Both the position numbers and the translations under genes were made by a program. From the NCBI RefSeq assembly GCF_014058705.1, contig NZ_CP059692.1, positions 1,369,001 through 1,433,000 of the forward strand: DNA of 64,000 nucleotides, given 5' to 3'. Within the stretch, counting starts at the first letter, position 1. Each line of letters begins with the position of its first letter. This document shows, piece by piece, positions 1 through 18,185 of the stretch. This DNA is from Aureimonas mangrovi. Its GTDB lineage: Bacteria; Pseudomonadota; Alphaproteobacteria; Rhizobiales; Rhizobiaceae. The notes beneath the pieces were generated by a model. That model was not told where the DNA came from, searched no databases, and was given only the letters and a program-made list of their open reading frames with translations.

Positions 1-1113
1 CCCTTCTTCCACCGGGTGGACAGCGACGGTCAGCAGCTTCCCTACATCGACACGGTTTCAATGAGCATCGCCAGCGCGGGGCTGATCCCGGCCATGATCT
101 CCTCGGGGCAGAGCGACCTTCAGACGACGGCGTTGACGCTCGGCAACTACGCGTTCGTGAAGCAGGGCGAGGATCGCCAGGACTACGACGTCCTGCGCTG
201 GCCGAGTGGCAAAGGCTCGAGGATGGTCCTGTTCCCCGATCTCAACGCGAGCGACCCGGACTGGAGCGAGCTCCTGCGCCAAAGCGATTTCCGCCGCGCC
301 CTGTCGCTCGGCATCAACCGCGAGGACATTGCGCAGGCGATCTACTACGGTCTTGCGCGGCCCGCGGGCGATACGGTGCTGCCGGGCTCGTCGCTCTTCT
401 CGCCCGATCTCGCGACGCGCTGGACCCGCTTCGACCCAGACGAGGCGAACCGGCTCCTCGACAGCCTCGGGTTGACCGGGCGGGACGTCTCGGGAACGCG
501 CCTCATGGCGAACGGGCGGCCGCTCGATCTCGTGGTCGAGTTCGCCGGCGAGGACGGAGAACAGACCGACGTCCTCCAGCTCGTCGCCGAGGACTGGCGG
601 CGCATCGGCGTGCGGATGCTCTTCAAGGCCGTCGAGCGCGATACGCTGGCCGCGCGCCTCGCCGCAGGCTCACCGATCGTGTCGGTCGGCACTGGCCTCG
701 AGAACGGGACGCCGCGCCCCGAAGACAGCCCCGCCGCGCTCGCCCCGACGGACTCTTCGCAGGCCTCCTGGCCCGCGTGGGGGCTGCATTTCGAGAGCGC
801 CGGAAGGCTTGGTGCCGAACCGGACCTGCCTTTTGCGCAGGAGCAGTTGCGCCTGAACGAAGCCTGGCGCCGCACGCTCGACATGGGGGAGAAGGAACGC
901 CTCTGGCGCCGTATGCTGGAGATCGACGCCGACGAACTGCCCCGCATCGGCCTCGTGGCGGATGTCGACCAGATCGTCGTCGCGTCGCGCCGTCTGCGCA
1001 ACATCCCCCGCACCGGCCGTTGGAACTTCGAGCCGGGTGCCTTTTTTGGCTCCCACCACCCGGACACCTTCTTCTTCGCCCCTCCGACGGCGACGGCTCA
1101 GGCGCAGCCCTAA
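1..1113 (+). CDS. ABC importer substrate-binding protein, family 5 (5' truncated)
   Basis: C-terminal 370 residues of a periplasmic solute-binding protein of the peptide/nickel type (SBP_bac_5). The reading frame is open from base 1, so the start and signal peptide lie outside the window. The first residues (PFFHRVDSDGQQLPYID) match the conserved N-P-Y-x-W-x-V-D-x-x-G-x-x-L-P-Y-I-D segment in the middle of this family. The segment FRRALSLGINRE is the usual dimerless binding-core signature of these proteins. The next gene starts 3 bp after the stop and encodes the cognate permease, so the protein should deliver a peptide or similar oligomeric solute to it. The exact ligand cannot be read from sequence. 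Confidence 0.9.
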   Translation, partial: PFFHRVDSDGQQLPYIDTVSMSIASAGLIPAMISSGQSDLQTTALTLGNYAFVKQGEDRQDYDVLRWPSGKGSRMVLFPDLNASDPDWSELLRQSDFRRALSLGINREDIAQAIYYGLARPAGDTVLPGSSLFSPDLATRWTRFDPDEANRLLDSLGLTGRDVSGTRLMANGRPLDLVVEFAGEDGEQTDVLQLVAEDWRRIGVRMLFKAVERDTLAARLAAGSPIVSVGTGLENGTPRPEDSPAALAPTDSSQASWPAWGLHFESAGRLGAEPDLPFAQEQLRLNEAWRRTLDMGEKERLWRRMLEIDADELPRIGLVADVDQIVVASRRLRNIPRTGRWNFEPGAFFGSHHPDTFFFAPPTATAQAQP

Positions 1114-1116
1114 CGC

Positions 1117-2115
1117 ATGCTGCGCTATCTCGCCTTCCGCGTCGGCACGATGATCTCGACGCTGCTCGTCACCAGCGTCCTCATCTTCACGATCATCCAG
1201 CTTCCGCCGGGCGATTATCTGACAAACTATATCGGCGAGCTGCGGGCCGAGGGCGATTCGCAGGCCGAAGAGAAGGTCGCTTTCCTGCGCGAGCAGTACG
1301 GCCTCGACCAACCGCTTCCCATCCAGTACCTGCGGTGGATTTCGGGCTTCGTGCGCGGCGATTTCGGCTACTCCTTCGAATATGCCGCGCCGGTCTCGGA
1401 AGTGATGGGGGACCGTGTCTTCCTCACCCTCGTCCTGAATTTCGCGACGGTGCTTTTCGTCTATCTGGTCTCGTTTCCCCTTGGGCTTTACGTCGCGCGG
1501 CGAAAGGGCAGCCTGGCCGACCGATCCCTGACTCTGACCGGCTATCTCGGTCTTGCAACGCCCAATTTTCTTCTCGCGCTGATCCTTCTGTATCTGGCGA
1601 ACGCCTTGTTCGGCATCTCGATCGGCGGCCTGATGGACCCTGCCTACGCCGACGAGGGCTGGTCGGCCGCAAAGATCGGCTCGATGCTCGCCCATCTCGT
1701 CGTGCCCGTCGTCGTGATCGGCACGTCGGGCACCGCCGCCATGATCCAGCGCCTGCGCGCCAACCTTCTGGACGAGTTGCGGCGCCCCTATGTCGTCGCC
1801 GCGACGGCGCGCGGCCTGCCCGGCGGCTTCGTCCTGCGAAAGTACGCGCTGCGCTCGGCGCTCAACCCGTTCGTCTCCGATATCGGAGACATCCTGCCCC
1901 AGATCGTTTCGGGCTCGGTCATCATCTCCGTCATCATGTCGCTGCCCACGACCGGGCCGATGCTCCTGTCCTCGCTGCGCAGCCAGGACATGTATCTCGC
2001 CGGCTCCTTCCTCATGTTCCTCGCGATACTGACGGTCGCGGGCATGCTGGTGTCTGACATCATCCTGGCGCTGGTGGACCCGCGCGTGCGCCTGAGCGCG
2101 CGGCGCGGCGCATGA
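1117..2115 (+). CDS. ABC importer permease, DppB/OppB type
   Basis: Inner-membrane permease of 332 residues, the normal length for the DppB half of a peptide-type ABC importer. It has one N-terminal transmembrane segment (about residues 9-31), a long periplasmic loop containing the family motif LREQYGLDQPLPIQY, and then five more hydrophobic segments. The cytoplasmic EAA-type coupling helix is visible near residues 228-245 (ATARGLPGGFVLRKYALR). The start lies 3 bp after the binding-protein gene, and the stop overlaps the next permease by 4 bp, so the three genes form an operon. No ATPase gene of the system is in the window; it may lie upstream. Confidence 0.93.
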   Translation: MLRYLAFRVGTMISTLLVTSVLIFTIIQLPPGDYLTNYIGELRAEGDSQAEEKVAFLREQYGLDQPLPIQYLRWISGFVRGDFGYSFEYAAPVSEVMGDRVFLTLVLNFATVLFVYLVSFPLGLYVARRKGSLADRSLTLTGYLGLATPNFLLALILLYLANALFGISIGGLMDPAYADEGWSAAKIGSMLAHLVVPVVVIGTSGTAAMIQRLRANLLDELRRPYVVAATARGLPGGFVLRKYALRSALNPFVSDIGDILPQIVSGSVIISVIMSLPTTGPMLLSSLRSQDMYLAGSFLMFLAILTVAGMLVSDIILALVDPRVRLSARRGA

Positions 2116-3272
2116 GCGAAAGCGTGCCCCACTGGGTCAGCGAGAAGCCGTTCGACCCAGAGCGGGAAGCGGGCGAACACACACAGATTTCGGCGGCCTA
2201 CGCCAAGGCGTCGCAGCGACGGCTGTTCTGGTGGCGGCTTCGCCGCCATCGGCTCGCGGTCATCTCGCTCGTCTTCCTCGTCCTCGCGTATCTCGTCGCC
2301 GCCTTTGCCGAGTTCGTGGCGCCCGCCGGCGTCGCCACGCGCGACACGCAGAACATCTTCATGCCGCCGCAACTCGTCCGCGTCATGCACGAGGGCCGCC
2401 TCGTCGCGCCGTTCGTCTACGCAATGGACGGTGCGCTCGACATGGAGACGTTGCAGCGGCGTTACGCGGAGGACCGCTCGCGGCCGATGCCGCTGCGCTT
2501 CTTCTGCCGCGGCGAGCCTTACCGCTTCTGGGGCCTGTGGGAGGCCGACCGCCATCTCTTCTGCGCGCCGGAAGGCGGCACGGCCTTCCTCCTTGGCACC
2601 GATCGTCTCGGCCGAGACATGCTCTCCCGCCTCGTCCACGGTGCGCGGATTTCGCTGACGATCGGCCTTGTCGGTGTCACGCTCACGATGGCGCTCGGCC
2701 TTCTGTTCGGCGGCATTGCCGGCTATCGCGACGGCGCTGCCGATTTCTGGCTCGGCCGCGCCACCGAGATCCTGCGATCGCTGCCGCATCTGCCGATCTG
2801 GATGGCGCTCTCGGCTGCCCTGCCGGTCACCATGAGCCCGCTTCTGGTCTACTTCTTCATCACAGGCATCCTGGCGTTCCTCGAATGGCCCGGCCTTGCG
2901 CGCGCGGTGCGATCCAAGCTCCTGTCGCTGCGCGAGGAGGATTTCGTCGCCGCCGCCGAGATGATGGGGGCGGGAAGCGCGCGCGTCATCGCGCGTCATC
3001 TCCTGCCGAACTTCATCAGCCACATCGTCGTCTCGGCGGCGCTCGCCATTCCGACGATGATCTTGGCCGAAACGGCTCTCAGCTTCCTCGGTCTCGGCCT
3101 GCGTGCGCCCATCACGAGCTGGGGCGTTCTCCTAACGGAGGCGCAGAACATTGAGGCCGTCGTGCTCTATCCCTGGCTCTTGCTGCCGATGGCGCCGGTC
3201 ATGGCGACGGTCCTCGCCTTCTCGTTTCTCGGCGACGGGCTGCGCGACGCGCTGGACCCCCTGTCTGACTAA
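2112..3272 (+). CDS. ABC importer permease, DppC/OppC type
   Basis: Second permease of the peptide-type importer, 386 residues. After the first transmembrane helix (about residues 48-70) comes a roughly 100-residue periplasmic insertion, longer than in plain DppC. It precedes the family motif LLGTDRLGRDMLSR at about residues 158-171. Extended loops of this kind are known in YejE-like members. The EAA coupling loop is seen as AAEMMGAGSARVIARHLLPN near residues 282-301, and five further membrane segments follow. It starts inside the end of the upstream permease (ATGA overlap), and its stop overlaps the convergent cyclase gene by 4 bp. Confidence 0.93.
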   Translation: MSESVPHWVSEKPFDPEREAGEHTQISAAYAKASQRRLFWWRLRRHRLAVISLVFLVLAYLVAAFAEFVAPAGVATRDTQNIFMPPQLVRVMHEGRLVAPFVYAMDGALDMETLQRRYAEDRSRPMPLRFFCRGEPYRFWGLWEADRHLFCAPEGGTAFLLGTDRLGRDMLSRLVHGARISLTIGLVGVTLTMALGLLFGGIAGYRDGAADFWLGRATEILRSLPHLPIWMALSAALPVTMSPLLVYFFITGILAFLEWPGLARAVRSKLLSLREEDFVAAAEMMGAGSARVIARHLLPNFISHIVVSAALAIPTMILAETALSFLGLGLRAPITSWGVLLTEAQNIEAVVLYPWLLLPMAPVMATVLAFSFLGDGLRDALDPLSD

Positions 3273-4498
3273 ACCGACACGAGGGCTTCGTCACGCAAGG
3301 CGAAAAGGCTCGTCTCATGGTGCGTGCCGGGCAGTCGGAAGTTTCCGATAGGCTCCCACTGATCTGGATCGCAGGCCGCGACCTCGTCTTCGGCCAAGAC
3401 CGGTATGCCGAGGCGCTTCGTTTCCTTCTCGATGCGCTCCGCCTCATTGACGGATGGGCCGATCACCGAGAAGGAGAGCCGCTGGTGGATCCCAATATTC
3501 CCGAAGCGCACGTCTCCGATGCACAGCGCGATACCGAAGTCGAAAGCCTGCTCGCCGCTGGCCTGGCGGCGCACATTGACGGTCTCGCGAACCGCCCGCG
3601 CGGCGCGTGCTGCCTTCACGGCGGCAGCGCTCGCCTCCCGCTCCGTGGTCTCTCCCTCGCGGATCGGGAAGATCGCCAGAACCGCATCGCCGATGAAGGC
3701 CAGGATCTCCCCTCCAGCTTCCACCGCCGCACGGCCGGCGCAATCGAAATAGTCGTTGAGGAGTTCCAGATACCGCTCTTCCCGGAGATCCTCCGCGAGA
3801 CCGGTCGAGTTGCGCAGGTCCGAGTACCAGATCAGCGCGCGCACCTGGCTGCCGCTGCCGAGCCGGATTCGCCCGCCCAGCACCTCGCGGGCGATCGTCG
3901 GGCCGAGATAGGTGTCGGTCACGTTGGAGATGAGACGCGGGTAGATGTTGAGCTTGCAGACCAGCGCCATGTATCGCTGCAACTGCTGAAGGGCCTCGAT
4001 GACCTTGTCCTCGAAGCCGCCCGGCAGACGGGTCGCCCAGGTCATGTAAAGCCCGATGTCGTCCATGCGCGGCGGAAGCAGGGAGCGCGAGGTGAACATC
4101 TCGGTGCGAAAGCCGACCAGATCGGTATAGCCCTGATCCCGCAGCTCGACATAGAGGTCGAAGGGCAACGGCCCCGAACCGTCGAGCCGGCTGCGCAGGG
4201 ATGTCTCCCCGTGATCCAGCATCCATTTGATGGGGCTTCGGAGCCACTCCTCCGAATCCTCGTCCTGATGCGGGAAGCGGCTCGTCGACACGCCCCCATC
4301 AGCGCGCCACAGCACCGTCTCTGCCTCGAAGAGCGGATGGAGCGTCGACCAGGACATGCGGCATCGATCGATGGGGATGCCGAGATGAACGAGCTTGCCG
4401 GCAAGCGCCTCAAGTACGGTTTCGTTCGACTTTTCCGCCAGAGCCTGACGCAGCAGCCAGTCGCCGATCTTCATGATGTCGGACGTATCGAGCGTCAT
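3269..4498 (-). CDS. Class III adenylate/guanylate cyclase-type protein with non-standard purine site
   Basis: Protein of 409 residues with a soluble, poorly characterised N-terminal half and a C-terminal class III cyclase homology domain (about residues 215-365). The metal-binding aspartates are present (D227 in SDLRNST and D271 in FIGDAVLAIF), as are the transition-state residues N351 and R355. The two residues that normally select the purine are changed: the Lys three residues before the second metal-site GD is Ala267, and the Asp of the R-L-D-F-T motif is Ser342. Whether it makes cAMP, cGMP or another product is therefore open. It is the last gene of a four-gene minus-strand unit that includes a cyclic-nucleotide-binding protein. 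Confidence 0.88.
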   Translation of the reverse strand: MTLDTSDIMKIGDWLLRQALAEKSNETVLEALAGKLVHLGIPIDRCRMSWSTLHPLFEAETVLWRADGGVSTSRFPHQDEDSEEWLRSPIKWMLDHGETSLRSRLDGSGPLPFDLYVELRDQGYTDLVGFRTEMFTSRSLLPPRMDDIGLYMTWATRLPGGFEDKVIEALQQLQRYMALVCKLNIYPRLISNVTDTYLGPTIAREVLGGRIRLGSGSQVRALIWYSDLRNSTGLAEDLREERYLELLNDYFDCAGRAAVEAGGEILAFIGDAVLAIFPIREGETTEREASAAAVKAARAARAVRETVNVRRQASGEQAFDFGIALCIGDVRFGNIGIHQRLSFSVIGPSVNEAERIEKETKRLGIPVLAEDEVAACDPDQWEPIGNFRLPGTHHETSLFALRDEALVSV

Positions 4499-4514
4499 CC
4501 GGTCCTCCCCGATC

Positions 4515-5372
4515 TCAGTCCCGATCGGCCTTCATGCCCAGATCGATCCTCAGGCCCGGCCGCGCGGAGATCGCGCCAGGGAAGATCGACTGGGTGTCGG
4601 CCTCGATTCGCGCAAGCTCGGCATCCGCGTGCTTGTGGGAATGGTGAAACAGCACGAGCCTTTCGACTCCCGCCCGCCTGCACAGGCGGACGCCTTCCTC
4701 GTTCGACGAATGACCGTAGCCCTCGTAACGAGGCATTTCGGCATCGGTGAAGGTCGTGTCGAAAACGAGGACGTCCGCGCCCCGAACGAAATCCTCGAGC
4801 GCCGCGTCGCGTCGCCCCGGCACATGCTCGTGGTCCGTCGCATAGACGATCGTGCGCCCGCCCGCCTCCACCCGGTAGCCGACGGCACCGTTCGGGTGGC
4901 ACAGCTCGTGTGTTCGCATGCGGATGCCCGGTGCCGGAACGAGCTCGTCCCCCGGCCGGAACGTCACATAGTCGATCCGCGCCTTGAATTTCTCCAGTCC
5001 GACCGGATGAAAGGGCGGCCGCAAAAGGTCCGCCAGGAGTTCCCGGCAGTCCTTACCGTCCTGCATGTGCCCGGCATGGATGCGGATGGAACAGGCGGGG
5101 TCGTAGAGCGGTGCGAAATAGGCAAGACCCATGACGTGGTCGTAGTGGGCGTGGCTGAGGAAGAGGTCAAACTCGCGGCGCCCCTCGGCCATCAGCCGGT
5201 TGCCGAGCGCGATGGCTCCGGTGCCGGCATCGAAGACGAGCATCCGGTCCAGCGCTTCGATGGAAACGCAGGCGGTTCTCGCCCCGAAGGCGGAAGGGTC
5301 GTCCGGCGCGGCCGGAATAGATCCCCGCGCTCCCCAGACCTCCAGGCGCATCGCCGCTGGTGAAATTGTCAT
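4515..5372 (-). CDS. MBL-fold metallo-hydrolase
   Basis: Metallo-beta-lactamase-fold hydrolase of 285 residues. The metal-binding motif is complete: H74-A-H76-Y-D78-H79, then H159, D180 and a C-terminal His at about 243. The N-terminal WGARGSIP and VFDAGTG segments place it in the widespread COG1235-like group, which includes phosphodiesterases. The gene lies 16 bp upstream of the cyclase and 4 bp downstream of the cyclic-nucleotide-binding gene, so it is cotranscribed with both. A role in hydrolysing the nucleotide made by the cyclase is a reasonable inference but is not shown. Met8 is an alternative start without a clear ribosome site. Confidence 0.85.
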   Translation of the reverse strand: MTISPAAMRLEVWGARGSIPAAPDDPSAFGARTACVSIEALDRMLVFDAGTGAIALGNRLMAEGRREFDLFLSHAHYDHVMGLAYFAPLYDPACSIRIHAGHMQDGKDCRELLADLLRPPFHPVGLEKFKARIDYVTFRPGDELVPAPGIRMRTHELCHPNGAVGYRVEAGGRTIVYATDHEHVPGRRDAALEDFVRGADVLVFDTTFTDAEMPRYEGYGHSSNEEGVRLCRRAGVERLVLFHHSHKHADAELARIEADTQSIFPGAISARPGLRIDLGMKADRD

Positions 5373-5376
5373 CGGG

Positions 5377-5844
5377 TCACGCGGGAGGCTCGGCCGCCTC
5401 CGCGCGTGCCGCCACCAGTTCCGCCGAGGTCCGGTTCAGCCGCAGCGCCATCTCACGCAGCATCGCGCGCGCCATCGACGGGAAGGCATCGAGCATGTCG
5501 GAGAGGCAATCCTTGCCGATCTGGAGCGTTGCGAGGTCGCTCTCCGCCCTGACGGTCGCCGTCCTTGGAATATCGCACAGGATTCCGATCTCGCCGACGA
5601 TGTCGTTCCTCCCGAACCGGGCGAGCTCGATCTCGCCGATGGGCGAGCTGGCCAGCACCACGGCCTCACCGGACATGATCAGATAGGCGCTGTCACCCAC
5701 CTCGCCCTGATGGAAGAGCACGTCGCCCGCCGCGAAACACATCACCCGCGAGGTGTAGGCGACCAGCTTCAGCCGGCTCGGCTCGATGCCCTGGAAGAGG
5801 GGCGCGCGCCGGAGGATTTCGACCTCGTTCGAAAGAAGGCTCAT
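5377..5844 (-). CDS. Cyclic-nucleotide-binding domain protein
   Basis: Small protein of 155 residues consisting almost entirely of one cNMP-binding (CAP_ED) beta-roll domain, residues 14-125. The phosphate-binding cassette is intact: GEIGILCDIPRTATV with Glu85 for the ribose 2'-OH and Arg94 for the cyclic phosphate. There is no C-terminal helix-turn-helix, so it is not a CRP-type DNA-binding regulator. It more likely acts as a regulatory subunit for a partner. The start codon lies 3 bp after the stop of the ABC protein gene, which points to that protein as the partner. The C-terminal 30 residues form an Ala/Glu-rich helix. Confidence 0.88.
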   Translation of the reverse strand: MSLLSNEVEILRRAPLFQGIEPSRLKLVAYTSRVMCFAAGDVLFHQGEVGDSAYLIMSGEAVVLASSPIGEIELARFGRNDIVGEIGILCDIPRTATVRAESDLATLQIGKDCLSDMLDAFPSMARAMLREMALRLNRTSAELVAARAEAAEPPA

Positions 5845-5847
5845 GGC

Positions 5848-8595
5848 TCAAGCTCTCCGCTGCGATCCGCCAGCCTCGAAATTATCGCCGCCCTGCGACG
5901 ACGATAGGACGAGGTCGGCGGGCTGTGCAAGCTCGTCCTCCACGACCTGCCCGCGTTCGAAACGCAGGGTCCGGTCGAAACGTTCGGCCGCCATGGCGGC
6001 CGAGCTCACCCAGAACAGGCCGAAGGGGCGTTCAGGATCGCGCGCTCGCTTAAGGACGGCCTCGACGATGCGCAACTGCGTATCGGTGTCGAGCGCCGAG
6101 AGGCAGCGGTTCGCGACGAGATAATCCGGCGCCTTCAGAAGTGCGCGGGCCAGTGTCAGCTTCTGCTGCTGCCCCAGACTGAGGCGCTTGGCGCCGGAGC
6201 CGAGGTCGAATTCGAGCGCGGTGCGCAGGACGAAGGCGCGAAGGCCGGCGAAGTCGATCGTCTTCTCCAGGATCGCGCCGATCTTTGCGGCAACGCGCGG
6301 CGTGGTGTCGGCAAGGCGCCCGAAGACGATGTTGTCCTGCAAGGTGGCGGCAGGATTGAAGGCGCCCGGATCGTTGAAGACGATGCTGTCGCGCACGAGC
6401 GGAGAGGCGGTCTCCTGGAAGAGATGCCGCGCCTCGATGATCCGGGCGCGCAACGCGTCGTCGATGAGGCCGAGGCGATAGCGCGGCTCGACATAGGTCA
6501 AGGCCAGCCTGATCAGCGAGCTTTGGTCCTCCGTCGTCAGCGAGTTGGCCTCATCCGGGTCGACGCGCATCAGGAGCTGGCGGTAGAAATCGATTTCGTC
6601 GGGGCTGATGATGTCGATGCGCCGCAGGATCGGATTGTCCGTGCCGACCTCGCCGAAGAGCTCGACCAGGGTCGTGGCGATGGTGAGGCCCATCCTGGCG
6701 AGCGTATCGTCGAGCCCGGTCTCCTGCAGGACGCGACGCGCGTCCGAGCGCACGAGAAGGCGCGTGGCGGCCAGATCGCTTTCGCCCGATGCGCCGAAGA
6801 CGATGTTCTCGAAAATCGTCGCATTGTGGAGGAACCGGTCGAGTTCGAACCGCTCCACCACCTCGCCGAGGCCGGCTTCTCTCATCGCCGCGTCGAAACG
6901 GGCGCGGGCGACGAGCACCCGGGGGGCGGCAGCTTCGGCCCGCGAGAGAGGGATGCGGCGCGAAAGCCCGAGCCGCATGATGTCGCCCGTCAGTTCCACG
7001 ATCGAAATCGCCTCTTCGATCAATGCGCCTTCGCGGTCGGGGTCGAGCGGCAGCACCGAATGATCGATCCAGTCATCCCGCGCATCCAGAACCGTGTTGC
7101 CGGAGGCCTTCGCCTCGTTGCGCATCTGGATCTCGGCCCGGCTGGCGGAGTCGGCGACCGCAGGGGAGGGGTGATGCATCAACGGGTAGAGGAGGGCCTC
7201 ACGCAACGTGGACTGGGAATAGTAGGGTGCGGCCTCCGCATAGGCGAGGCGCCGGCCGGTGACGGATTCCGGCCAGGACGCGAAGGGCCGGCCGGCAAGT
7301 TCGAGCCGCCCCGCCGCGACCGGCGCGAGCCCCACGAGCGCCTCCGCGACGCTCTCGGCCCCCTCGCCGAGCGGCGCGAGCACGAGGACGCTCTCGTGCA
7401 GCGGAAGGTCGAGCGTCACCGAGGTCGCGAGCGGCGAGCCGGTCTCGTCGCGGATCGTCACGTCCAGGAGGCGGAAACCACCGGAAAGCGCCGCCACGGT
7501 TTCGCCGACCGGGGCCTGCGTCTTCGCATCGAGAAGATTGTCGATCTCGAACTGCTGAGCGACCTGCTCGTACTTCACGTTGACGTCGAGCCGCATCAGG
7601 TCCCAGTCAATCAGATCCTTCAGCGGCGAGGGAAGCTCGCGATAAGCCGCGATCACCGCGACGAGCTCGCCGATGTCGATTTCGCCGCGGATCGCGAAAT
7701 AGCCGCCGAACAGGTAGAAGATGAAGGGCGTGGCCTGCGACAGGAAGTTGTTGAGGAATTTGACGAAGAACTTCCACTGGTAGATGTCGAAGCGGATCAG
7801 GAAGATCCGGCCGAGCTGCTGAGCCGTTCGCGCCCGTACGATGTTCGAGGTGTCGTTGGTGCGGATCGTCGGCATGCTTTCGATGATCTCGCCGATGCTG
7901 CCGGCGAGCCTGCGCGCCGTTAGCTGTCTCTCGCGGCCCAGAACCAGCAGCCTTCGGCGCATGCGCGGGATCACCGCCGCCTGAAGCAGCGTCACGCCGA
8001 GAGCGATGGCGCCGAGCGTCGGGCTTTGCAGGAAGATGAATACCATCGCCGTCAGGATCTGGCTGGCGAGGTACAGCGGCTGGACGAAGGCGTCGCCGAT
8101 GAAGCCGCCGATCGGCTCGAGCTCGTCCTTGATCATGGAGGCGACTTCGGCCGGCCGCACGCGCCGGAACTGGCGGATCGGAAAGCGCAGCACCCGGTCG
8201 ACCATCTCGTAGCGCATGCGACGCAGCATCCGCTCGCCGAGCCGGCCCTTGTAGGTGTTCAGATAGAACTTGAACGCTCCGTTCACGATCACGAAGAACA
8301 GGAACAGCATCGAGAGGGCGACGAGGGCCTCGATCCGCTCCAGCGGGATCGCGTCGAAGAGGACGAGTTCTTCGGGTCCGCCGATGAAGCCCGGCAGCGG
8401 CACGGCGAGGCGGAAATAGTCGACCGTGGCCCCGGCGGCCTCGAAGCCCTGACCCTGGATCGGGCCGTTGATGATGAGCTTCGGCAGGTTCAGCGACAGG
8501 AACAGGGGGATGATGGATACGAGAACCACCACCAACATCCAGATCTGCTGGGGGCGCGTGTGGTTCCACACATAGCGATAGAGAGAGGTAGCCAT
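5848..8595 (-). CDS. ABC exporter-like membrane protein with degenerate, expanded nucleotide-binding domain
   Basis: Protein of 915 residues. Residues 15-330 form an ABC exporter-type membrane domain with about six hydrophobic segments. Residues 360-890 correspond to a nucleotide-binding domain that is about 300 residues too long and has lost its catalytic residues. The Walker A position reads A-P-L-G-E-G-A-E-S (407-415, Lys replaced by Ala413). Walker B reads L-V-A-N-R-C (Asp and Glu replaced by Asn829 and Arg830), and the switch His is Ser near 864. The signature survives as LSLGQQQ (805-811). Three short segments like the region after the Q-loop occur at 463-470, 593-601 and 751-759, suggesting internal repetition. 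It heads the operon with the cyclic-nucleotide genes. Confidence 0.85.
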   Translation of the reverse strand: MATSLYRYVWNHTRPQQIWMLVVVLVSIIPLFLSLNLPKLIINGPIQGQGFEAAGATVDYFRLAVPLPGFIGGPEELVLFDAIPLERIEALVALSMLFLFFVIVNGAFKFYLNTYKGRLGERMLRRMRYEMVDRVLRFPIRQFRRVRPAEVASMIKDELEPIGGFIGDAFVQPLYLASQILTAMVFIFLQSPTLGAIALGVTLLQAAVIPRMRRRLLVLGRERQLTARRLAGSIGEIIESMPTIRTNDTSNIVRARTAQQLGRIFLIRFDIYQWKFFVKFLNNFLSQATPFIFYLFGGYFAIRGEIDIGELVAVIAAYRELPSPLKDLIDWDLMRLDVNVKYEQVAQQFEIDNLLDAKTQAPVGETVAALSGGFRLLDVTIRDETGSPLATSVTLDLPLHESVLVLAPLGEGAESVAEALVGLAPVAAGRLELAGRPFASWPESVTGRRLAYAEAAPYYSQSTLREALLYPLMHHPSPAVADSASRAEIQMRNEAKASGNTVLDARDDWIDHSVLPLDPDREGALIEEAISIVELTGDIMRLGLSRRIPLSRAEAAAPRVLVARARFDAAMREAGLGEVVERFELDRFLHNATIFENIVFGASGESDLAATRLLVRSDARRVLQETGLDDTLARMGLTIATTLVELFGEVGTDNPILRRIDIISPDEIDFYRQLLMRVDPDEANSLTTEDQSSLIRLALTYVEPRYRLGLIDDALRARIIEARHLFQETASPLVRDSIVFNDPGAFNPAATLQDNIVFGRLADTTPRVAAKIGAILEKTIDFAGLRAFVLRTALEFDLGSGAKRLSLGQQQKLTLARALLKAPDYLVANRCLSALDTDTQLRIVEAVLKRARDPERPFGLFWVSSAAMAAERFDRTLRFERGQVVEDELAQPADLVLSSSQGGDNFEAGGSQRRA

Positions 8596-8733: not shown

Positions 8734-9879
8734 GTGCCAACCCGACCGCCGGCCGCAAGCCTGCCGATCGCGTTCTACGCTCCCTTGAAGTCGCCGGATG
8801 ATCCGGTGCCTTCCGGAGACAGGACCCTTGCGCGTCTTCTCCTGGCCGCGCTGACGACCGCCGGCTTCGAGCCGGCGCTGGCGAGCACGCTGCGAAGCTT
8901 CTCGGTGGATGGGGCCAGGCAGAACGCGCTTCTGGAAGCCGGCGAGACGCAAGCCAACGAAGTTGCCGCACGGCTCATGCAGCTTGCATCGCAACGACGT
9001 CCGCGCCTGTGGTTCACATATCACAACCACTACAAGGCCCCTGACCTTCTGGGGCCTGCGGTCTCTCGTGCGCTCGCCATCCCCTACGTGATCGCCGAGG
9101 CCTCGCACGCGCCCAAACGAGCCGGAGGGCCGTTCGACCGGTTCCACCACATGGCGGCGCAGGCATCGCTCGCAGCCGATCTCCACCTCGTCCTGAACCC
9201 ACGCGACGGCGCCGGTCTTGCCGCGCTCCGCGCCGGCACCGAAGGTCTCGTACCTTTCGCCCCATTCACGGCTGCGGCCATGGGGCCGGCACCCTTGCCC
9301 ATCCCGGAAGACGGGCCGCTGCGCCTGATGACCGCCGCGATGATGCGGCCGGGTGACAAGTTCCAGTCCTATCGGGTGCTGGCCGATGCGCTCGGCCGCC
9401 TCGATTGCGACTGGACGCTGGATGTCGCCGGGGACGGCACGGCGCGCGCCGAAGTCGAGGCGCTTTTCGAAGGGCTTGGCGCACGGGTGCGCTTCCACGG
9501 CCTCATCGATGGTCCCGCCGAACTCGCCGCCTTCTATCGCGCGGGCGACCTTCTCGCCTGGCCGGGCGTGAACGAGGCCTTCGGAATGACCTATCTGGAA
9601 GCGGCCCGCGAGGGCCGTGCCGCAGTCGCTATGCGCTATGGCGGCGTCGCGACGGTCGTTGCGGACGGGGCTTCCGGCATCCTGACTGAAGCGGGCGACG
9701 TCGCGGCCTTCTCGGCGACGCTGGACCGGCTCGCGCGCAACCGCGCTCTTCTGCGGCGGCTCGGCGCGCAGGCGCGAAACCACACGATGGAGCATCATGG
9801 ACCGGAGGCCGCGGCGCGCCGCCTCAGGGAAACGCTGTGCCCGCTTCTCAAAGTGGGGGATGCGCGATGCGCGTCCTGA
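8734..9879 (+). CDS. Glycosyltransferase family 4
   Basis: GT-B fold glycosyltransferase of 381 residues that should transfer a sugar from a nucleotide donor during surface or capsular polysaccharide synthesis in the cytoplasm. The C-terminal donor-binding half is typical of GT4. It has the retaining-enzyme E-x7-E segment NEAFGMTYLEAARE at about 285-298, preceded by AGDLLAWPG. The start is a GTG. The divergent ABC gene begins 138 bp away, so the two share an upstream region. The stop overlaps the next gene by 13 bp, and the two are probably translated together. Sugar and acceptor cannot be inferred. Confidence 0.88.
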   Translation: MPTRPPAASLPIAFYAPLKSPDDPVPSGDRTLARLLLAALTTAGFEPALASTLRSFSVDGARQNALLEAGETQANEVAARLMQLASQRRPRLWFTYHNHYKAPDLLGPAVSRALAIPYVIAEASHAPKRAGGPFDRFHHMAAQASLAADLHLVLNPRDGAGLAALRAGTEGLVPFAPFTAAAMGPAPLPIPEDGPLRLMTAAMMRPGDKFQSYRVLADALGRLDCDWTLDVAGDGTARAEVEALFEGLGARVRFHGLIDGPAELAAFYRAGDLLAWPGVNEAFGMTYLEAAREGRAAVAMRYGGVATVVADGASGILTEAGDVAAFSATLDRLARNRALLRRLGAQARNHTMEHHGPEAAARRLRETLCPLLKVGDARCAS

Positions 9880-11771
9880 TCGCGGTCACGCATCTTCTCG
9901 GCAGCGGTCATCTGGCGCGCGCTGCGCTCCTAGGCCGCGGTCTGGCGGCCGCGGGTCACGAGGTCTGTCTGGCGAGTGGCGGCAGGCCGGTCCCCAACAT
10001 CGACACGAGCGGCGTCGAATTCGTTCAGCTTCCGCCGGTTCATTGCCGTGGCGCCGATTTCCGCACGTTGTGGGGCGAGGGCGATCTGCTTCTTGACGAC
10101 GTCTTGCGAGGAAAACGGCGCGACGCGCTTCTCGCGGCCTTCCGGCGTCTGCGGCCCGACGTGGTGGTGACGGAGACCTATCCCTTCGGCCGCCGCACCC
10201 TCGCGCTCGAGTTCGATGCGCTTGTGGAGGCGGTCTGGAAGCGTGCCGATCGGCCTGCGCTGCTCGCCTCGGTTCGCGACATCCTCGCTCCGCCGTCCTC
10301 GCCGCAGAAGGGCGCGCGCACCGAGGCGATGATCGTGGAGCGATATGACGGCGTTCTCGTCCACGGGGATCGCGACACCATTGCTCTCGAAGCCTCATGG
10401 CCGGCCAGCGGCCGGCTGCTGTCGCACCTCCATTACACAGGCTACGTTACGGATGCCGCTTTGCCGGATGAAGTCGAGCGCGGCGACGAGATCATCGTGT
10501 CGGGCGGCGGCGGCATCGCCGGCCTCCCGCTCTTCGCAGCCGCCTTGGAAGCGTCGGAAAGGAGGGAGAACAGCGCGACCTGGCGCGTTCTCGTCGGCCA
10601 CGGGGTGCCGGAGCCCGAGTTCGAGCGGCTTGCGGCCCGCGCACATCCGAGGTTGATCGTGGAGCGCGCCCGGCGTGACTTCCGCCGCCTTCTTGCCGGC
10701 GCGGCCGTCTCCGTCAGCCAGAGCGGCTACAACACCGTTCTGGACCTCGCCGCCACCCACACCCCGGCGGTTCTAGTGCCTTTCGAGGAAGGGGGAGAGA
10801 CCGAGCAGCGCACCCGCGCGCAGGCCTTGGCGGCGGGCGGGCACGCGGTGCTCCTGCCGGCGCAGGACCTGTCGGCCGAACAGCTCCTCCTTGCCGTAGA
10901 TCGCGCGCGTCACGAGCTTCGGCCGCTCGATCAGAGCACCGCGACGGACGGCGTCACGCGCAGTGTCGCTCTGATCGAGGCGGCTGGGGAGAAGGCGCGT
11001 CGGGTCGCATCGGCGTGGCGCGCGCTGGAGGCGCGGCTCGACGCGCTGCACGATGCCGGCCGACCGGCTCGCATCTGGTGGCGCGATGACGACGCGGCCG
11101 AGCCGACGCCGGCTCTGGAACGCCTTCTCGACCTGCGCGCGGAGCTCGATGTGCCGATCGCGCTCGCCGTCAGCCCGCGCCTCGCCACGGACACTCTGGC
11201 GCAGAGGCTGGCCGGGGAGGGCGCATCGGTCTGTGTCCTCGTCCACGGCGTCGCGCATGAGAACCACGCTCCGCTGGGAGAGAAGTCGCGCGAACTCGGC
11301 TTTCGCCCTGCCACCGAGACCCTCTCGGCGCTCGGCGATGGTCTGGCGGATCTGCGGGAGAGCCTGGGCGAACGGGTGCTGCCGGTGCTTGTGCCGCCCT
11401 GGAACCGGATCGACGAGGAACTGGTGCCTCGGCTATCCGCGCTCGGCTATCGCGGCCTGTCCACCTTCGGCGCACGAGCTTCTCGGTGCCGCGATGGCCT
11501 GGCGATCTGCAACACGCATTGCGATCCGATCGACTGGCGCAGGGGCGGGGGCCTTGTCGACGAAGAGACCCTCCTGCTTCGGCTCGTGCGGGACATCGAA
11601 CGCGAGGAGGAGATCGGCATCCTGACGCACCATCGCGTCCATGACGAACGGATCTGGCACGTCACGAAGCGCCTCCTCCGTCTCTTCGCGAACCATGCTG
11701 GCGCACGGATCGTGGACGCGGCCGCGATCTTCCCCGACCCTTCACCCGAACAGCCAAGGATGGCGCGATGA
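9867..11771 (+). CDS. Fusion of MurG-like glycosyltransferase and polysaccharide deacetylase-like domain
   Basis: Protein of 634 residues with two enzyme-like parts. Residues 1-375 resemble a GT28/MurG-type glycosyltransferase: an N-terminal GSGHLARA loop and a donor-site segment SQSGYNT at 284-290. Residues 400-634 resemble a NodB/CE4 or DUF2334-like polysaccharide deacetylase: a metal-site RDDDA at 406-410, a VHGVAHEN segment, PPWNR, and LTHHRVHDE near the end. The start was placed at the ATG giving MRVLIAVTH, since the ten residues upstream are not family-like. It overlaps the upstream GT4 gene and is followed, with a 4-bp overlap, by a UDP-sugar dehydrogenase. Combined transfer and N-deacetylation of an amino sugar is the inferred role. 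Confidence 0.85.
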   Translation: MRVLIAVTHLLGSGHLARAALLGRGLAAAGHEVCLASGGRPVPNIDTSGVEFVQLPPVHCRGADFRTLWGEGDLLLDDVLRGKRRDALLAAFRRLRPDVVVTETYPFGRRTLALEFDALVEAVWKRADRPALLASVRDILAPPSSPQKGARTEAMIVERYDGVLVHGDRDTIALEASWPASGRLLSHLHYTGYVTDAALPDEVERGDEIIVSGGGGIAGLPLFAAALEASERRENSATWRVLVGHGVPEPEFERLAARAHPRLIVERARRDFRRLLAGAAVSVSQSGYNTVLDLAATHTPAVLVPFEEGGETEQRTRAQALAAGGHAVLLPAQDLSAEQLLLAVDRARHELRPLDQSTATDGVTRSVALIEAAGEKARRVASAWRALEARLDALHDAGRPARIWWRDDDAAEPTPALERLLDLRAELDVPIALAVSPRLATDTLAQRLAGEGASVCVLVHGVAHENHAPLGEKSRELGFRPATETLSALGDGLADLRESLGERVLPVLVPPWNRIDEELVPRLSALGYRGLSTFGARASRCRDGLAICNTHCDPIDWRRGGGLVDEETLLLRLVRDIEREEEIGILTHHRVHDERIWHVTKRLLRLFANHAGARIVDAAAIFPDPSPEQPRMAR

Positions 11772-13126
11772 GCGAGCCTCGAGCCGAACCCGACAACGCG
11801 CTGGCCCGCGAACTTCTTTCGCGCATCGAGGCGCGTTCGGCGCGCATCGGCGTCATCGGGCTCGGCTATGTCGGCCTTCCGCTCGCCCTCGCGCTGTGCC
11901 GCGCGGGCTTCCCGGTGATCGGCTTCGACATCGACGAGCGGCGCGTCGCCCTCCTCAATGGCGGCGAAAGCGGCATCCGGCACATCGAATCGGACGCGAT
12001 CCGCATTGCGCTCGCTGAGAATCGTTTTGAAGCCACGGCCGACTTCACGCGTCTTGGAGAGGCGGACGCCGTTCTCATCTGCGTGCCGACGCCGCTGACG
12101 CGCCAGCGCGAGCCAGACCTGACCTTCGTGGAGCGCGCCAGCCGCCAGATCGCGCAGACCTTGAGACCGGGCCAGCTCGTGGTGCTGGAATCGACGACAT
12201 GGCCGGGCACGACGCTCGAAATCGTCAAGCCGATCCTTCAGGCGGGCGGCGAGCGCTCCGGCGAAAGCTTCTTTCTCGCCTTCTCGCCGGAGCGCGAAGA
12301 CCCCGGAAACCCGCACTTTGCCACCGGCAACATCCCGAAGATCGTCGGCGGCGACGGCGAGGCGGCCTTGCGGCTGGCCGACGCCCTTTACGGCGCGACG
12401 GTCACGGCGACAGTGCCCGTCTCGAGCCCTTCAGTCGCCGAGGCCGTGAAGCTCACCGAGAACATCTTCCGCTCGGTCAACATCGCGCTCGTGAACGAGT
12501 TGAAGATGGTCTACGGCGCGATGGGCATCGACGTCTGGGACGTCATCGCAGCCGCCGCCACCAAGCCCTTCGGCTTCATGCCCTTCCAGCCGGGCCCGGG
12601 GCTCGGCGGCCACTGCATCCCGATCGACCCGTTCTATCTCGCCTGGAAGGCGCGCGAGTTCGATGCGCCGACGCGCTTCATCGAGCTGGCCGGCGAGATC
12701 AACACGGCGATGCCGCGCCATGTGGTGGATCGTCTGGCCGAAGCGCTCGACCGACGCTTCCAGCGAGGGCTGAACGGCGCGCGAATTCTTGTTCTCGGCG
12801 TCGCCTACAAGCCCAATGTCGAGGACACGCGCGAGAGCGCCTCGTTCCGCCTGATCGAGCTTCTGCAGGATCGCGGCGCCGTTACCGAGTATCACGACCC
12901 GCATGTGCCGGAGATTCCACGCACGCGCGAGCATGCGCAGCTGGCTGGTTCACGTTCGGTGGCGTTGACGCCCGATACCATCGCCGGCTTCGACGCGGTT
13001 CTGGTGGCGACCGACCACGACGATGTGGACTACGGGCTGATCGCCCGGCACATGCGGCTCGGCGTCGACACGCGCAATGTCTTCGCGCGCACGGGGGCGG
13101 ATCAGTCGCGCGTCGTCAAGGCGTGA
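11768..13126 (+). CDS. UDP-N-acetylhexosamine-type 6-dehydrogenase (WbpA/TviB/WecC family)
   Basis: Nucleotide-sugar dehydrogenase of 452 residues that oxidises a UDP-linked hexose or N-acetylhexosamine at C6 to the uronate with two NAD+. The N-terminal Rossmann motif GVIGLGYVGLPLA (about residues 26-38) is clear. The catalytic cysteine lies in the family motif GLGGHCIPIDPFYL (about 278-291), and the C-terminal domain contains GVAYKPNVEDTRES. The sequence resembles WbpA/TviB more than UDP-glucose dehydrogenase, so a UDP-GlcNAc or UDP-GalNAc substrate is likely. It overlaps the fused transferase gene by 4 bp and ends convergently, overlapping the next gene by 11 bp. It probably supplies uronate donors to the neighbouring transferases. 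Confidence 0.92.
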   Translation: MSEPRAEPDNALARELLSRIEARSARIGVIGLGYVGLPLALALCRAGFPVIGFDIDERRVALLNGGESGIRHIESDAIRIALAENRFEATADFTRLGEADAVLICVPTPLTRQREPDLTFVERASRQIAQTLRPGQLVVLESTTWPGTTLEIVKPILQAGGERSGESFFLAFSPEREDPGNPHFATGNIPKIVGGDGEAALRLADALYGATVTATVPVSSPSVAEAVKLTENIFRSVNIALVNELKMVYGAMGIDVWDVIAAAATKPFGFMPFQPGPGLGGHCIPIDPFYLAWKAREFDAPTRFIELAGEINTAMPRHVVDRLAEALDRRFQRGLNGARILVLGVAYKPNVEDTRESASFRLIELLQDRGAVTEYHDPHVPEIPRTREHAQLAGSRSVALTPDTIAGFDAVLVATDHDDVDYGLIARHMRLGVDTRNVFARTGADQSRVVKA

Positions 13127-14417
13127 GGGTGGGGCGCCGCGCTAGGCTGGCATCGAGGAGGCCGACGAGCGTCGCGATGCCGCCATCGAGGGAGAATTCG
13201 TCGCGAAGGCGCCGGAAGGCCGCTTCGCCCAGCCGTTCGCGCGCTGCGGGGTCGGCGATCAGCGCCTCCAGAGCCTGCGCGAGAGCGGACGCATCGGCGG
13301 GCGGCACAAGGCGGCCGTTCTGTCCGTCCCGTATGAATTCGGGCACACCCGCGTAATTCGTGGAGACGAGGGCGAGTTCCTGCGACGCCGCTTCCATCAG
13401 GACGTTCGGAAGCCCGTCGCGATCGCCCTTGTCGCCCTCGCGGCAGGCGAGCACGAAGAGGTCCGCTTCGCTCAAGGCCGCGACCACCTCGTCCTGAGGC
13501 TGCGAGCCGCGCCATTCGATCCGATCCGCGAGCCCGAGCCGTTCGGCCTGTGCCTTCAGTTCGTCCTTCAGTTCTCCCGATCCCACATGGACGAAGCGCC
13601 AGTGCTGGTCGGCCGGCAGGCGCGAGAGCGCTTCCAAAATGTCGGCGAAGCCCTTCTTGGCCACCATTCTGCCGACCGAGACGATGCGCACCGGATCGAG
13701 CGGATCGGTGCCGTCGCGCCGGGCGCTCCGCAAGGGAGGCGCGGGAAAGCGGCGAAGGTCGAGGCCGTGATAGGCGAGCTGTACGCGCGCCGGCTCGCCG
13801 GACGGTGAAAGTCGTCGCAGCTCCTCGTAGCCCTGCTTCGTGCAGGTCACGCCCCAGCCGCTGTCGGCGATCTTCTCGCGCCGTTCCCATTCGGGCGTTG
13901 TCCAGATGTCCTTGGCGTGGGCCGAGAAGCTGAACGTCCCCTGCCGCAGAAGCGCCGCGTAGCGGGCGACGGAGCCGGGCGTGTGCAGGAAGTGGACGTG
14001 AATGTGGGCGAGTTCGGGATCGAGTTCGCGCGCCAAGACCGCGGCCTGTCCGATCCGTCGCAGGCGATTGGGTGATGGGTCGCGCCGAAGGTCGCGCAGC
14101 GCTGTGTGCAGGAATGCGCCGAATCCTGGTAAACGCCGGGCTTGAAGAAGGCCGGCGAGAACGCGGCGCGGTGCCCTGTAGAGATACTCCGGCAGATAGC
14201 GCACACTCGCGCGGATGCGTCGATGCAGCTCGTGGCGGTCCGTGTCGGTAGGCTCGCGCAGCGACCAGATATCGATCTCGAAGCCGGCTTGCTCCAAAGC
14301 CAGGATTTCCTGCGCGATGAAGGTTTCCGACAGGCGCGGATAGCCCTTCACCACAACGGGAAGCCGCCGGGCCGGCCTTGCGCCGCCGCCCGGATCTGTT
14401 TCTGTCTCCCGCCTCAT
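13116..14417 (-). CDS. Glycosyltransferase family 4
   Basis: GT-B glycosyltransferase of 433 residues. The N-terminal domain contains YPRLSETFIAQEI near residue 27, typical of exopolysaccharide transferases of the ExoL/WcaL type. The C-terminal domain has SVGRMVAKKGF around 250 and the donor-site run DGLPNVLMEAASQ around 350, which carries the conserved acidic pair. The start codon overlaps the stop of the upstream MurG-like gene by 4 bp, so the two are cotranscribed on the minus strand. They converge on the dehydrogenase gene with an 11-bp overlap. It should act in the cytoplasm on a polysaccharide intermediate; specificity is unknown. Confidence 0.9.
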   Translation of the reverse strand: MRRETETDPGGGARPARRLPVVVKGYPRLSETFIAQEILALEQAGFEIDIWSLREPTDTDRHELHRRIRASVRYLPEYLYRAPRRVLAGLLQARRLPGFGAFLHTALRDLRRDPSPNRLRRIGQAAVLARELDPELAHIHVHFLHTPGSVARYAALLRQGTFSFSAHAKDIWTTPEWERREKIADSGWGVTCTKQGYEELRRLSPSGEPARVQLAYHGLDLRRFPAPPLRSARRDGTDPLDPVRIVSVGRMVAKKGFADILEALSRLPADQHWRFVHVGSGELKDELKAQAERLGLADRIEWRGSQPQDEVVAALSEADLFVLACREGDKGDRDGLPNVLMEAASQELALVSTNYAGVPEFIRDGQNGRLVPPADASALAQALEALIADPAARERLGEAAFRRLRDEFSLDGGIATLVGLLDASLARRPTLTP

Positions 14418-15676
14418 GCCCGAGCGGCCCCCGAGTCTGTCCTTGTCGAGCCGTCCTTCAAAAGGTCGCGCGTCGCCGCTTCGATCCGTTCGAGACCACT
14501 CAGGAGACCGGGTGGGAAGCCGTTCGACGGAAGCGGCTGATGAGCCAGTGAACGGATCGCCTGCGCCATGACGCCGGGGTCACGCCGAACGTTCGGCTCC
14601 AGCAGCGCCCCGTCCAGCGTGGTGACGAGGCCGAGCCTGGCGGCTCGCTCGGCGCGGATCGCCTGTTCGAGCCGGGGCGTGCGCCGTGGCACGATCAGGG
14701 CGCGCTTGTCGAAAGACAGGATTTCGCAGAAGGTGTTGTATCCGCCCATGGCGATCACGCCCTCGGAGCGATGCATCAGATGCTCGATCTTGGTGTCGAA
14801 GGTGATCGCTTCCACCTTCGGCAGCCGCGCGATTCGCTCCATCAGCGCCATGCGGCGCTCGCGCGGGACGAAGGGGCCGAAGACGAGAAGGGCGCCCAGC
14901 ACGAGCGTCTCGTCCGCCTCGTAGGCCGAGACCACCCAGTCGAACAACTCGTCTCCGTCGCCGCCACCGCCGGTCGTCACCAGAGCGAAGGGCTCTCGCG
15001 TGAGCCTTGGATAGCGCGTCGTCTGCGTGCGCGGCGGCAGGTCGCGGCGGATATAGCCCGTGTAGATGATCCTTTCGGACGCCGACGGGCTTAGCTCGAA
15101 GGCCGAAAGCGGCTCGTAGATTTCTGCGAGGCCGTAGACCCAAACTTCGTCGTAGAAGCGCTCCAGAGCCTCCAAGGCACCTTTACGCTGCCATTCTGGA
15201 ACGATGACGGAGGGCTCATCGAGGACATCGCGCAAGCCGAGGACGATGCGCGTGCCGGCCTTCTTCAGATGGTCGAGCGTCCTCACGAGCTCGTCGCGAA
15301 AGCCGGTGGGCTCCTTGTCGACGATCAGAATGTCCGGCCGCAACTCGCGCGCGGTCGCCATGATGATCGCCTCGCGCATGCGGACCGCTTCGTCGAGATC
15401 GAGCGACAGGCTGGAGGTGGAGTAGCTGCCGTCGGGGAGCTTCACGACCCCTGGAACGCGGACATAGTCGACGCCATCGGCGAACTCGAAGTTTCCGATC
15501 ACGGGAGAGCCGGAGATGATCACGATGGATGCATGGGCAAAGCCCGTCGCCAACTGGTTGGCGATCGCCCGGCATCGACGGATGTGACCCAGCCCGAACG
15601 TGTCGTGGCTGTAGATGAGGATACGCGGACCGCTGGACCTGCCTCGACGGGCTGCTTCGAGCGATGTGACGGACAT
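14414..15676 (-). CDS. MurG-like glycosyltransferase family protein
   Basis: Protein of 420 residues with a GT28/MurG-like GT-B architecture. The N-terminal YSHDTFGLGHIRRC segment (about residues 22-35) corresponds to the glycine loop that contacts the acceptor phosphate. The C-terminal AMGGYNTFCEILSF segment (about 311-324) corresponds to the nucleotide-binding region. Proteins of this type with SHDTFGLGH are common in alphaproteobacteria next to GT4 genes and are not well characterised. It is the first gene of a two-gene minus-strand unit with the GT4 at 13116-14417. The long 479-bp region upstream probably carries its promoter. Confidence 0.85.
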   Translation of the reverse strand: MSVTSLEAARRGRSSGPRILIYSHDTFGLGHIRRCRAIANQLATGFAHASIVIISGSPVIGNFEFADGVDYVRVPGVVKLPDGSYSTSSLSLDLDEAVRMREAIIMATARELRPDILIVDKEPTGFRDELVRTLDHLKKAGTRIVLGLRDVLDEPSVIVPEWQRKGALEALERFYDEVWVYGLAEIYEPLSAFELSPSASERIIYTGYIRRDLPPRTQTTRYPRLTREPFALVTTGGGGDGDELFDWVVSAYEADETLVLGALLVFGPFVPRERRMALMERIARLPKVEAITFDTKIEHLMHRSEGVIAMGGYNTFCEILSFDKRALIVPRRTPRLEQAIRAERAARLGLVTTLDGALLEPNVRRDPGVMAQAIRSLAHQPLPSNGFPPGLLSGLERIEAATRDLLKDGSTRTDSGAARA

Positions 15677-17004: not shown

Positions 17005-17280
17005 TCTTGTGCGGGACCTTCGGTTCAGAAGATGCGAAGTGAAGCCTGCAGCAGGGCACGGCCGCGCCTCCACGTGCCGCTTCCCCCGTGGATCCGGAAC
17101 TCGGGGCGTTCGGCGGTTCGGCAAGCTGCAGGCGCGCGATGCGTGCGCCCCCACACAGAGCGTGCATCTTCCATTCGAGATATAGAGATGTGCCACTCGC
17201 CGGTGAGGCGAGGGTGTTGACTGTTCTGCTACCGTAGGGCGAATTACCTTTGGGAATGCGCCTTTGGGGAGCGGACCGCC

Positions 17281-18109: not shown

Positions 18110-18185
<76 letters not shown>

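Follow-up and report, generated by a model that had tools for sequence, protein, structure and literature searches.

An ABC exporter relative with a degenerate nucleotide-binding domain, paired with a predicted cyclic-nucleotide sensor at a glycan gene locus of Aureimonas mangrovi

ABC proteins are usually regarded as ATP-driven machines, and a locus of Aureimonas mangrovi raises the question of what such a protein does when it shares an operon with predicted functions for making, sensing and possibly removing a cyclic nucleotide. The locus lies in the window analyzed here, the 64,000-nt stretch at positions 1,369,001-1,433,000 of the single 3.49 Mb contig (NZ_CP059692.1). Four genes follow one another on its minus strand, encoding a membrane protein of the type IV ABC exporter fold (ABC; 915 aa; 5848..8595), a stand-alone cyclic-nucleotide-binding domain (CNB; 155 aa; 5377..5844), an MBL-fold hydrolase with intact metal ligands (MBL; 285 aa; 4515..5372) and a class III nucleotide cyclase with an N-terminal region of ~200 residues (CYC; 409 aa; 3269..4498). 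Each open reading frame has an ATG start and one stop, the gaps are 3 bp (ABC-CNB), 4 bp (CNB-MBL) and 16 bp (MBL-CYC), and matches above the curated Pfam cut-offs were obtained for ABC_membrane and ABC_tran, cNMP_binding, Lactamase_B_2 and Lactamase_B, and Guanylate_cyc, respectively. We confirm the four genes and their operon-like layout, in agreement with an initial annotation of this DNA, which had read the same strand, spacing and families. Its further proposal, that cyclic-nucleotide synthesis and sensing are tied to one membrane protein, is upheld by the predicted functions, by genetic linkage and by fusion of the sensor to ABC in some lineages. We suggest that the ABC family is a repurposed exporter relative whose partner is a predicted cyclic-nucleotide sensor; more specifically, we see about an even chance that ABC serves as a receptor or gate, a pseudo-ABC protein under the control of a cyclic nucleoside monophosphate (cNMP), for a glycan pathway.

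The fold of ABC is that of an exporter. The protein scores 80 bits against ABC_membrane and 26.9 bits against ABC_tran, and its AlphaFold2 model (predicted local distance difference test, 84.9) matches PDB structures of ABC exporters; both the exporter transmembrane domain and the overall fold of an active type IV ABC exporter are present. The nucleotide-binding domain (NBD) is degenerate. In a phmmer search of PDB sequences, the best match covers ABC in two stretches, residues 79-468 and 724-848, and other residues stand in place of the lysine of Walker A and the acids of Walker B. By alignment, the former Walker A (residues 406-416, LAPLGEGAESV; 7348..7380, minus strand) departs from GxxGxGK[S/T] with alanine for lysine and glutamate for Ser/Thr, the former Walker B (residues 824-836; 6088..6126, minus strand) has asparagine for aspartate (N829) and arginine for the catalytic glutamate (R830), and the signature motif reads LSLGQ instead of LSGGQ (6157..6189, minus strand). 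The NBD also carries an insert of ~280 residues, in part a repeated helical region; the internal stretch of residues 476-752 (6340..7170, minus strand) is mostly helical and repeats the Q-loop/helical subdomain.

This degeneracy extends through the family. We aligned 142 ABC members, comprising 80 from named-genome loci, 60 from class-wide loci and 2 from plasmids. The named loci are the best 80 of at least 552 relatives in a named-species scan, mostly from Rhizobium, Mesorhizobium, Aureimonas and kin with one from Plasticicumulans, and they enrich the alignment in close relatives. The class-wide draw, at a threshold of E 1e-60, found the family in 132/385 genomes and 88/277 genera; its 60 loci represent 59 of the 132 positive genomes, picked for the most part so that each family label contributed one, and some stop early with their contig. 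Not one of the 142 members has the complete catalytic set of Lys, Ser/Thr, Asp and Glu. The Walker A Lys position holds Ala in 59, Lys in 36, Arg in 22, Gly in 18 and other residues in 7; the Ser/Thr position is Glu or Asp in 122/142, the Walker B Asp position is Asn in 111/142 and Asp in 9/142, the catalytic Glu is retained in 35/142, and Gly808 of the signature is found in 27/142. Lys and Ser/Thr occur jointly in two members, and Asp and Glu in two others, neither pair being present in the window protein, whose combination of A, E, N and R is the commonest (53/142). In 118/142 members, the Ser/Thr position of Walker A (residue 414 of the window protein) is acidic and the Asp position of Walker B (829) has no acid, one of these members (L048) ending before residue 829; the pattern may stem from decay or from swapping of the metal-binding acid. 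Most of the columns that are invariant across the family fall in the transmembrane half, and none of the best 25 of 110 NCBIfam models matching ABC reached its cut-off (best, 101.9 vs. 853.3 bits). Judged by its motifs, ABC is no ordinary exporter. In public records, members are named as ATP-binding or transmembrane-domain proteins of ABC transporters, labels that probably mislead.

The initial annotation had envisaged a nucleotide-gated transporter or receptor. Since the ATPase motifs are gone, an ATP-driven nucleotide-gated transporter is unlikely, and a receptor, gate or scaffold fits better. It is rather unlikely that ABC remains an active exporter of a glycan or glycolipid, working through a rewired ATP site or with a partner half-transporter and switched on and off by CNB. 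The retained fold and the frequent glycosyltransferase neighbors are consistent with such an exporter, the acid pattern of the 118 members could preserve metal binding, and a minority of members keep the Walker A lysine or the catalytic glutamate. The window protein, however, has none of the four catalytic residues, and the nearby ABC ATPases that were looked at are not exporter halves: queries beside six loci returned ATPases above 200 bits in five, all matching an Opp-type importer profile, as does the ABC ATPase upstream of the window (L217). A partner half-transporter was rejected on these matches.

The reading of ABC as a receptor or gate gives a central place to CNB. This protein matches cNMP_binding (PF00027) with 67.4 bits (cut-off, 27.5) and keeps the phosphate-binding cassette VGEIGILCDIPRTATVRAESD (5536..5598, minus strand, by alignment), including its Glu85 and Arg94. 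Residue counts for CNB, CYC and MBL rest on loci L023-L119, a set in which some genomes appear twice, so that part of the rows are duplicates; on this basis, position 85 is Glu in 67/71 relatives (Asp in 4) and position 94 is Arg in 71/71, so that CNB has both the domain and the cassette Glu/Arg of cNMP-binding proteins. CNB is the next detected gene after ABC, on the same strand, in 79/80 named loci, the exception (L048) ending inside the ABC gene. It adjoins or is fused to ABC in 56/60 class-wide loci, sharing one frame with it in 8, and the plasmid-borne fusions of Sulfitobacter and Azospirillum are single chains of 1034 and 1020 aa. Fusion of otherwise neighboring proteins is the strongest sequence hint that ABC and CNB act together. 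These loci indicate that the widespread core is ABC with CNB, often accompanied by glycan genes. The A. mangrovi genome has three further cNMP domains, of which two belong to longer frames of about the size of Crp and the third to a frame of stand-alone size. Besides CNB, a second stand-alone protein of this kind, of 151 aa, is encoded near 491.8 kb (L216, 5208-5663) beside a response-regulator gene; weak CNB matches occur in most genus genomes, even those without the ABC family, and may be relatives of this protein.

Does the linkage hold across genomes? A near-full-length ABC orthologue was found in 18/41 genomes (A. mangrovi and 40 relatives), followed by only partial matches, and the other 17 orthologues are 31-78% identical to the window protein. 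Among 24 genus and family relatives, orthologues of ABC, CNB, MBL and CYC are jointly present in 12 and jointly absent in 12. Strong orthologues were delimited by E < 1e-90 for CYC, E < 1e-38 for CNB and E < 1e-58 for MBL, and weaker cyclase or cNMP matches elsewhere were not taken as orthologues; the value of 1 in 2.7 million for identical 12/24 sets disregards kinship among the genomes, and we do not treat it as a probability. The initial annotation had named a lack of co-occurrence in related genomes as one outcome that would undo it, and the neighborhood comparison found co-occurrence to be conserved, beyond what chance would give. In the class-wide genomes the ABC family extends beyond Hyphomicrobiales. 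As a conserved unit, the pair of ABC and CNB stands, but the full four-gene order was seen in 10 same-genus genomes and some relatives; in G021 and G024, the CYC gene sits outside the operon, a few kb upstream and on the other strand.

Some family members have a disrupted or shortened appearance. On pSymB of Sinorhizobium meliloti 1021 (L121), the ABC gene (15721-18422) and the cyclase gene (2477-3775) each fall into two pieces in different frames. In ten S. meliloti records the ABC match is one piece in five and two or three pieces in five, which may be due to frameshift, sequencing error or alignment gaps. A Phaeobacter plasmid (L123) encodes a shorter protein that matches in the transmembrane part alone and lies amid copper-related genes; short transmembrane-only matches occur on other Roseobacter plasmids too, and may represent a related ABC subfamily with another role.

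The metal ligands of CYC and MBL are intact. CYC scores 27.5 bits against PF00211 (cut-off, 21.9), and the metal-binding aspartates of class III cyclases, D227 and D271, are present in 42/42 relatives, as is R355. Position 267, read from alignments and taken by us to be the substrate-selecting site, is alanine instead of the canonical Lys (ATP) or Glu (GTP); relatives have Ala in 26, Ser in 13, Asp in 2 and Lys in 1 (n = 42). With Ala or Ser at this position in 39/42 relatives, the product of CYC is unpredictable. CYC is the sole PF00211 match in its genome, where no class I cyclase was found. PF00211-type cyclases occur inside the 8 kb flanks of 44/80 named loci. Of the 36 loci lacking one there, 33 were searched with the cyclase of Rhizobium johnstonii (32% identical to CYC), and L048, L078 and L090 were left out for short or ending contigs; in 32 of the 33, a cyclase lies 10.0-14.2 kb upstream on the same strand, the shared contig being deduced from coordinates, and L115 has none near. 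A cyclase is thus near ABC in 76/80 named loci in total, and the annotated records of R. johnstonii, R. etli and Phyllobacterium place the upstream cyclase within this gene cluster, at its distant end. MBL, found near ABC in 42/80 named loci, matches Lactamase_B_2 (PF12706) with 74.4 bits, and the MBL-fold ligands H74, H76, D78, H79, H159, D205 and H243 are present in 42/42 relatives. Its score against the cyclic-nucleotide phosphodiesterase model NF041851 (50.8 bits; cut-off, 400) is exceeded by that against an RNase Z model, which is itself under its cut-off (67.9 bits; 292.95). A likeness of MBL to the phage phosphodiesterase Apyc1 was considered and set aside, since the eight PDB sequences listed as matches are RNase Z and other hydrolases and none is named Apyc1; the two may still be kin.

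Further cyclases and a putative cyclase relative were seen at these loci. DUF3095, which we take to be a cyclase relative, occurs within 8 kb in 17/80 named loci (e.g., L088, 14274-15452), and the count of 44/80 above is independent of it; a DUF3095 search of the A. mangrovi genome gave no match, but gave none in control genomes either. Near the clusters there are also recurrent cyclases in which a class III domain is joined to a 2Fe-2S ferredoxin domain and a membrane part (L101, 13561-15294). They are reminiscent of CyaC, the redox-regulated membrane cyclase of S. meliloti.

What might the pair act upon? The setting among glycan genes is, together with the NBD degeneracy, a feature that the initial annotation did not contain. 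The operon is flanked by an Opp-type importer on one side and by glycosyltransferases and a UDP-glucose/GDP-mannose-type dehydrogenase on the other. On the plus strand, the importer side comprises a solute-binding protein of family 5 (16..1113; SBP_bac_5), which starts upstream of the window and has a longer frame in L217, and two Opp-type permeases (1117..2115, BPD_transp_1; 2112..3272, BPD_transp_1 and OppC_N), the second of which converges on CYC with a 4 bp overlap. Just upstream of the window lie the Opp importer ATPase and a weak polysaccharide-deacetylase match. On the other side, a GT4-type glycosyltransferase (8734..9879, plus strand; Glyco_trans_1_4) diverges from ABC and is followed by a GT28-like glycosyltransferase of 644 aa (9837..11771, plus strand; Glyco_tran_28_C only) whose C-terminal part is deacetylase-like; comparison by eye with the stand-alone deacetylase of related clusters suggests a glycosyltransferase-polysaccharide deacetylase fusion. 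Next come a UDP-glucose/GDP-mannose dehydrogenase family protein (11768..13126, plus strand; UDPG_MGDP_dh), a further GT4-type glycosyltransferase (13116..14417, minus strand; Glycos_transf_1) and a further GT28-like glycosyltransferase (14414..15676, minus strand; profile match and relatives), which has strong matches in the same 12/24 relatives as ABC and one weaker match (G003). Glycosyltransferases were present in the fetched flanks of 67/80 named and 40/60 class-wide loci. In many class-wide loci, the divergent block before ABC consists of glycosyltransferases, a gene similar to the histidine phosphatase annotated in Sulfitobacter, and a deacetylase; hyphomicrobial clusters add the Opp importer, a sugar-nucleotide dehydrogenase, DUF3095 and sometimes a polysaccharide lyase. 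No paper assigning a glycan to this cluster was found in the open-licence literature. The gene pRL110056, called an O-antigen biosynthesis gene, is reported as important for root colonization (PMC11103875). Gene counting from repA suggests that pRL110056 belongs to the R. johnstonii cluster or borders on it.

Taken as a receptor or gate, ABC would form one functional unit with CNB, its exporter fold having lost ATPase catalysis. CYC would make a cyclic nucleotide; CNB, docked on the cytoplasmic part of ABC, would bind it and, once loaded, would alter the conformation of an exporter fold that is probably no longer ATP-driven in the window lineage. The neighboring glycosyltransferases, deacetylase and sugar-nucleotide dehydrogenase would make a surface or secreted glycan, whose export or assembly the switched protein could then gate or regulate, and MBL would plausibly end the signal by removing the cyclic nucleotide. 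Sequence comparison shows the linkage, the co-presence and co-absence, the ABC-CNB fusion, the CNB cassette, the metal ligands of CYC and MBL and the family-wide NBD degeneracy; from these we infer nucleotide binding, complex formation, gating, the action of MBL on a cyclic nucleotide and the glycan as target.

Several observations weigh against this proposal. The Walker A lysine is kept in 36/142 members and the catalytic glutamate in 35/142, which may mean rewired nucleotide binding or slow hydrolysis. No CNB was seen near ABC in 4/60 class-wide loci (L160, L165, L198, L201), even at lenient thresholds. In the class-wide loci, surveyed for cyclase only to about 8 kb, a cyclase lies within that distance in 6/60 (L172, L194, L195, L208, L213, L214) and MBL is near ABC in 1/60, so not every locus has a cyclase and a hydrolase of its own; the counts indicate that the two joined, or stayed close, in Hyphomicrobiales. 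No glycosyltransferase was seen in 13/80 named and 20/60 class-wide loci, some of them on short contigs, and in G021 and G024 the match to the glycosyltransferase at 14414-15676 is on a different contig from ABC, leaving the linkage unsupported there. We found neither biochemical nor genetic data on members of the ABC family. Moreover, the cNMP domain of the Nostoc protein HetC reportedly bound ppGpp best, rather than cAMP, cCMP or c-di-GMP, which bears on the ligand of CNB (PMC10986499).

The same neighborhood would suit a protein that transports nothing. ABC and CNB could respond to a cNMP as a scaffold or sensor, exerting allosteric control over glycosyltransferases at the membrane. The degenerate NBD, the conserved glycosyltransferase linkage and the lack of translocation evidence are all compatible with this, yet the concentration of invariant columns in the transmembrane half suggests a membrane function beyond anchoring, and we regard the scaffold as unlikely. 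That the genes merely share a locus, with CYC and CNB signaling elsewhere, for example to Crp-type regulators, is improbable: the three further cNMP domains in the genome would allow it, but the co-presence and co-absence in 24 relatives and the ABC-CNB fusions argue otherwise. A Pycsar-like anti-phage system, in which a cyclase serves a cNMP-binding membrane effector, can be set aside as very improbable, since the PADLOC matches that prompt it (PycC models to CYC, best 71.8 bits; a PycTIR model to CNB, 54.1 bits) span the generic cyclase and cNMP domains alone, CNB has at 155 aa a cNMP domain and no TIR or transmembrane effector fused to it, and the unit is tied to glycan genes in many genomes.

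If the receptor or gate is real, an ABC family that has lost its ATPase motifs but is retained together with a protein binding cyclic nucleotides would amount to a new mode of operation for the ABC fold, and would provide a direct, non-transcriptional target for a cyclic nucleotide in Alphaproteobacteria. It would also provide an entry point to a recurrent cluster of glycan genes found in plant symbionts such as Rhizobium and Sinorhizobium, and hints at unrecognized messenger control over what the cell makes or exports.

How does the locus compare with known systems? Among the papers listed in searches of the open-licence literature, none was recognized as describing the ABC-CNB pairing. CFTR and SUR, a eukaryotic ABC-fold channel and channel regulator, still bind ATP and are not known to have a CNB partner; as ABC folds serving beyond ATP-driven pumping they resemble ABC in principle only, with fold matches found. 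A bolder version of our proposal builds on that likeness, and we hold it to be speculative and on balance unlikely: an ABC exporter deprived of its ATPase, with the helical lobe of the NBD multiplied, would act as a receptor or conduit that a cyclic nucleotide opens in place of ATP; a dedicated cyclase with a non-canonical substrate site and a dedicated hydrolase would serve it, and it would control glycan release. Pycsar shares with the locus a cyclase, a cNMP sensor and a membrane component. The NHLM bacteriocin-type exporters with their cNMP protein (TIGR03796, TIGR03896) are another association of cNMP binding with an exporter, but the matches, 101.9 bits for ABC as given above and 42.1 bits (cut-off, 161.05) for the second CNB match, are far below the cut-offs; no gene for an NHLM-type peptide substrate was noted here, no search aimed at it having been made. 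MsbA2 of S. meliloti (SMb21191) is likewise an ABC exporter-type protein beside glycosyltransferase genes, whose removal is reported to be deleterious only while the upstream glycosyltransferase genes remain (PMC3687685, PMC12239276, PMC5596199). Identity of the ABC family with MsbA2 is ruled out, since the S. meliloti member lies at 841.7-844.4 kb of pSymB and the first gene of the msbA2 operon near 938 kb. The closest known protein to ABC-CNB is HetC of Nostoc PCC 7120, which reportedly joins an ABC exporter fold to a cNMP-binding domain needed for function, and differs in having a C39 peptidase domain, an essential ATPase residue and ppGpp as its best ligand (PMC10986499). The C39 domain of HetC and PCAT proteins has no Pfam match in ABC at E up to 0.1. 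In contrast to HetC, the A. mangrovi protein has a degenerate NBD, and its CNB is a separate protein encoded beside a cyclase.

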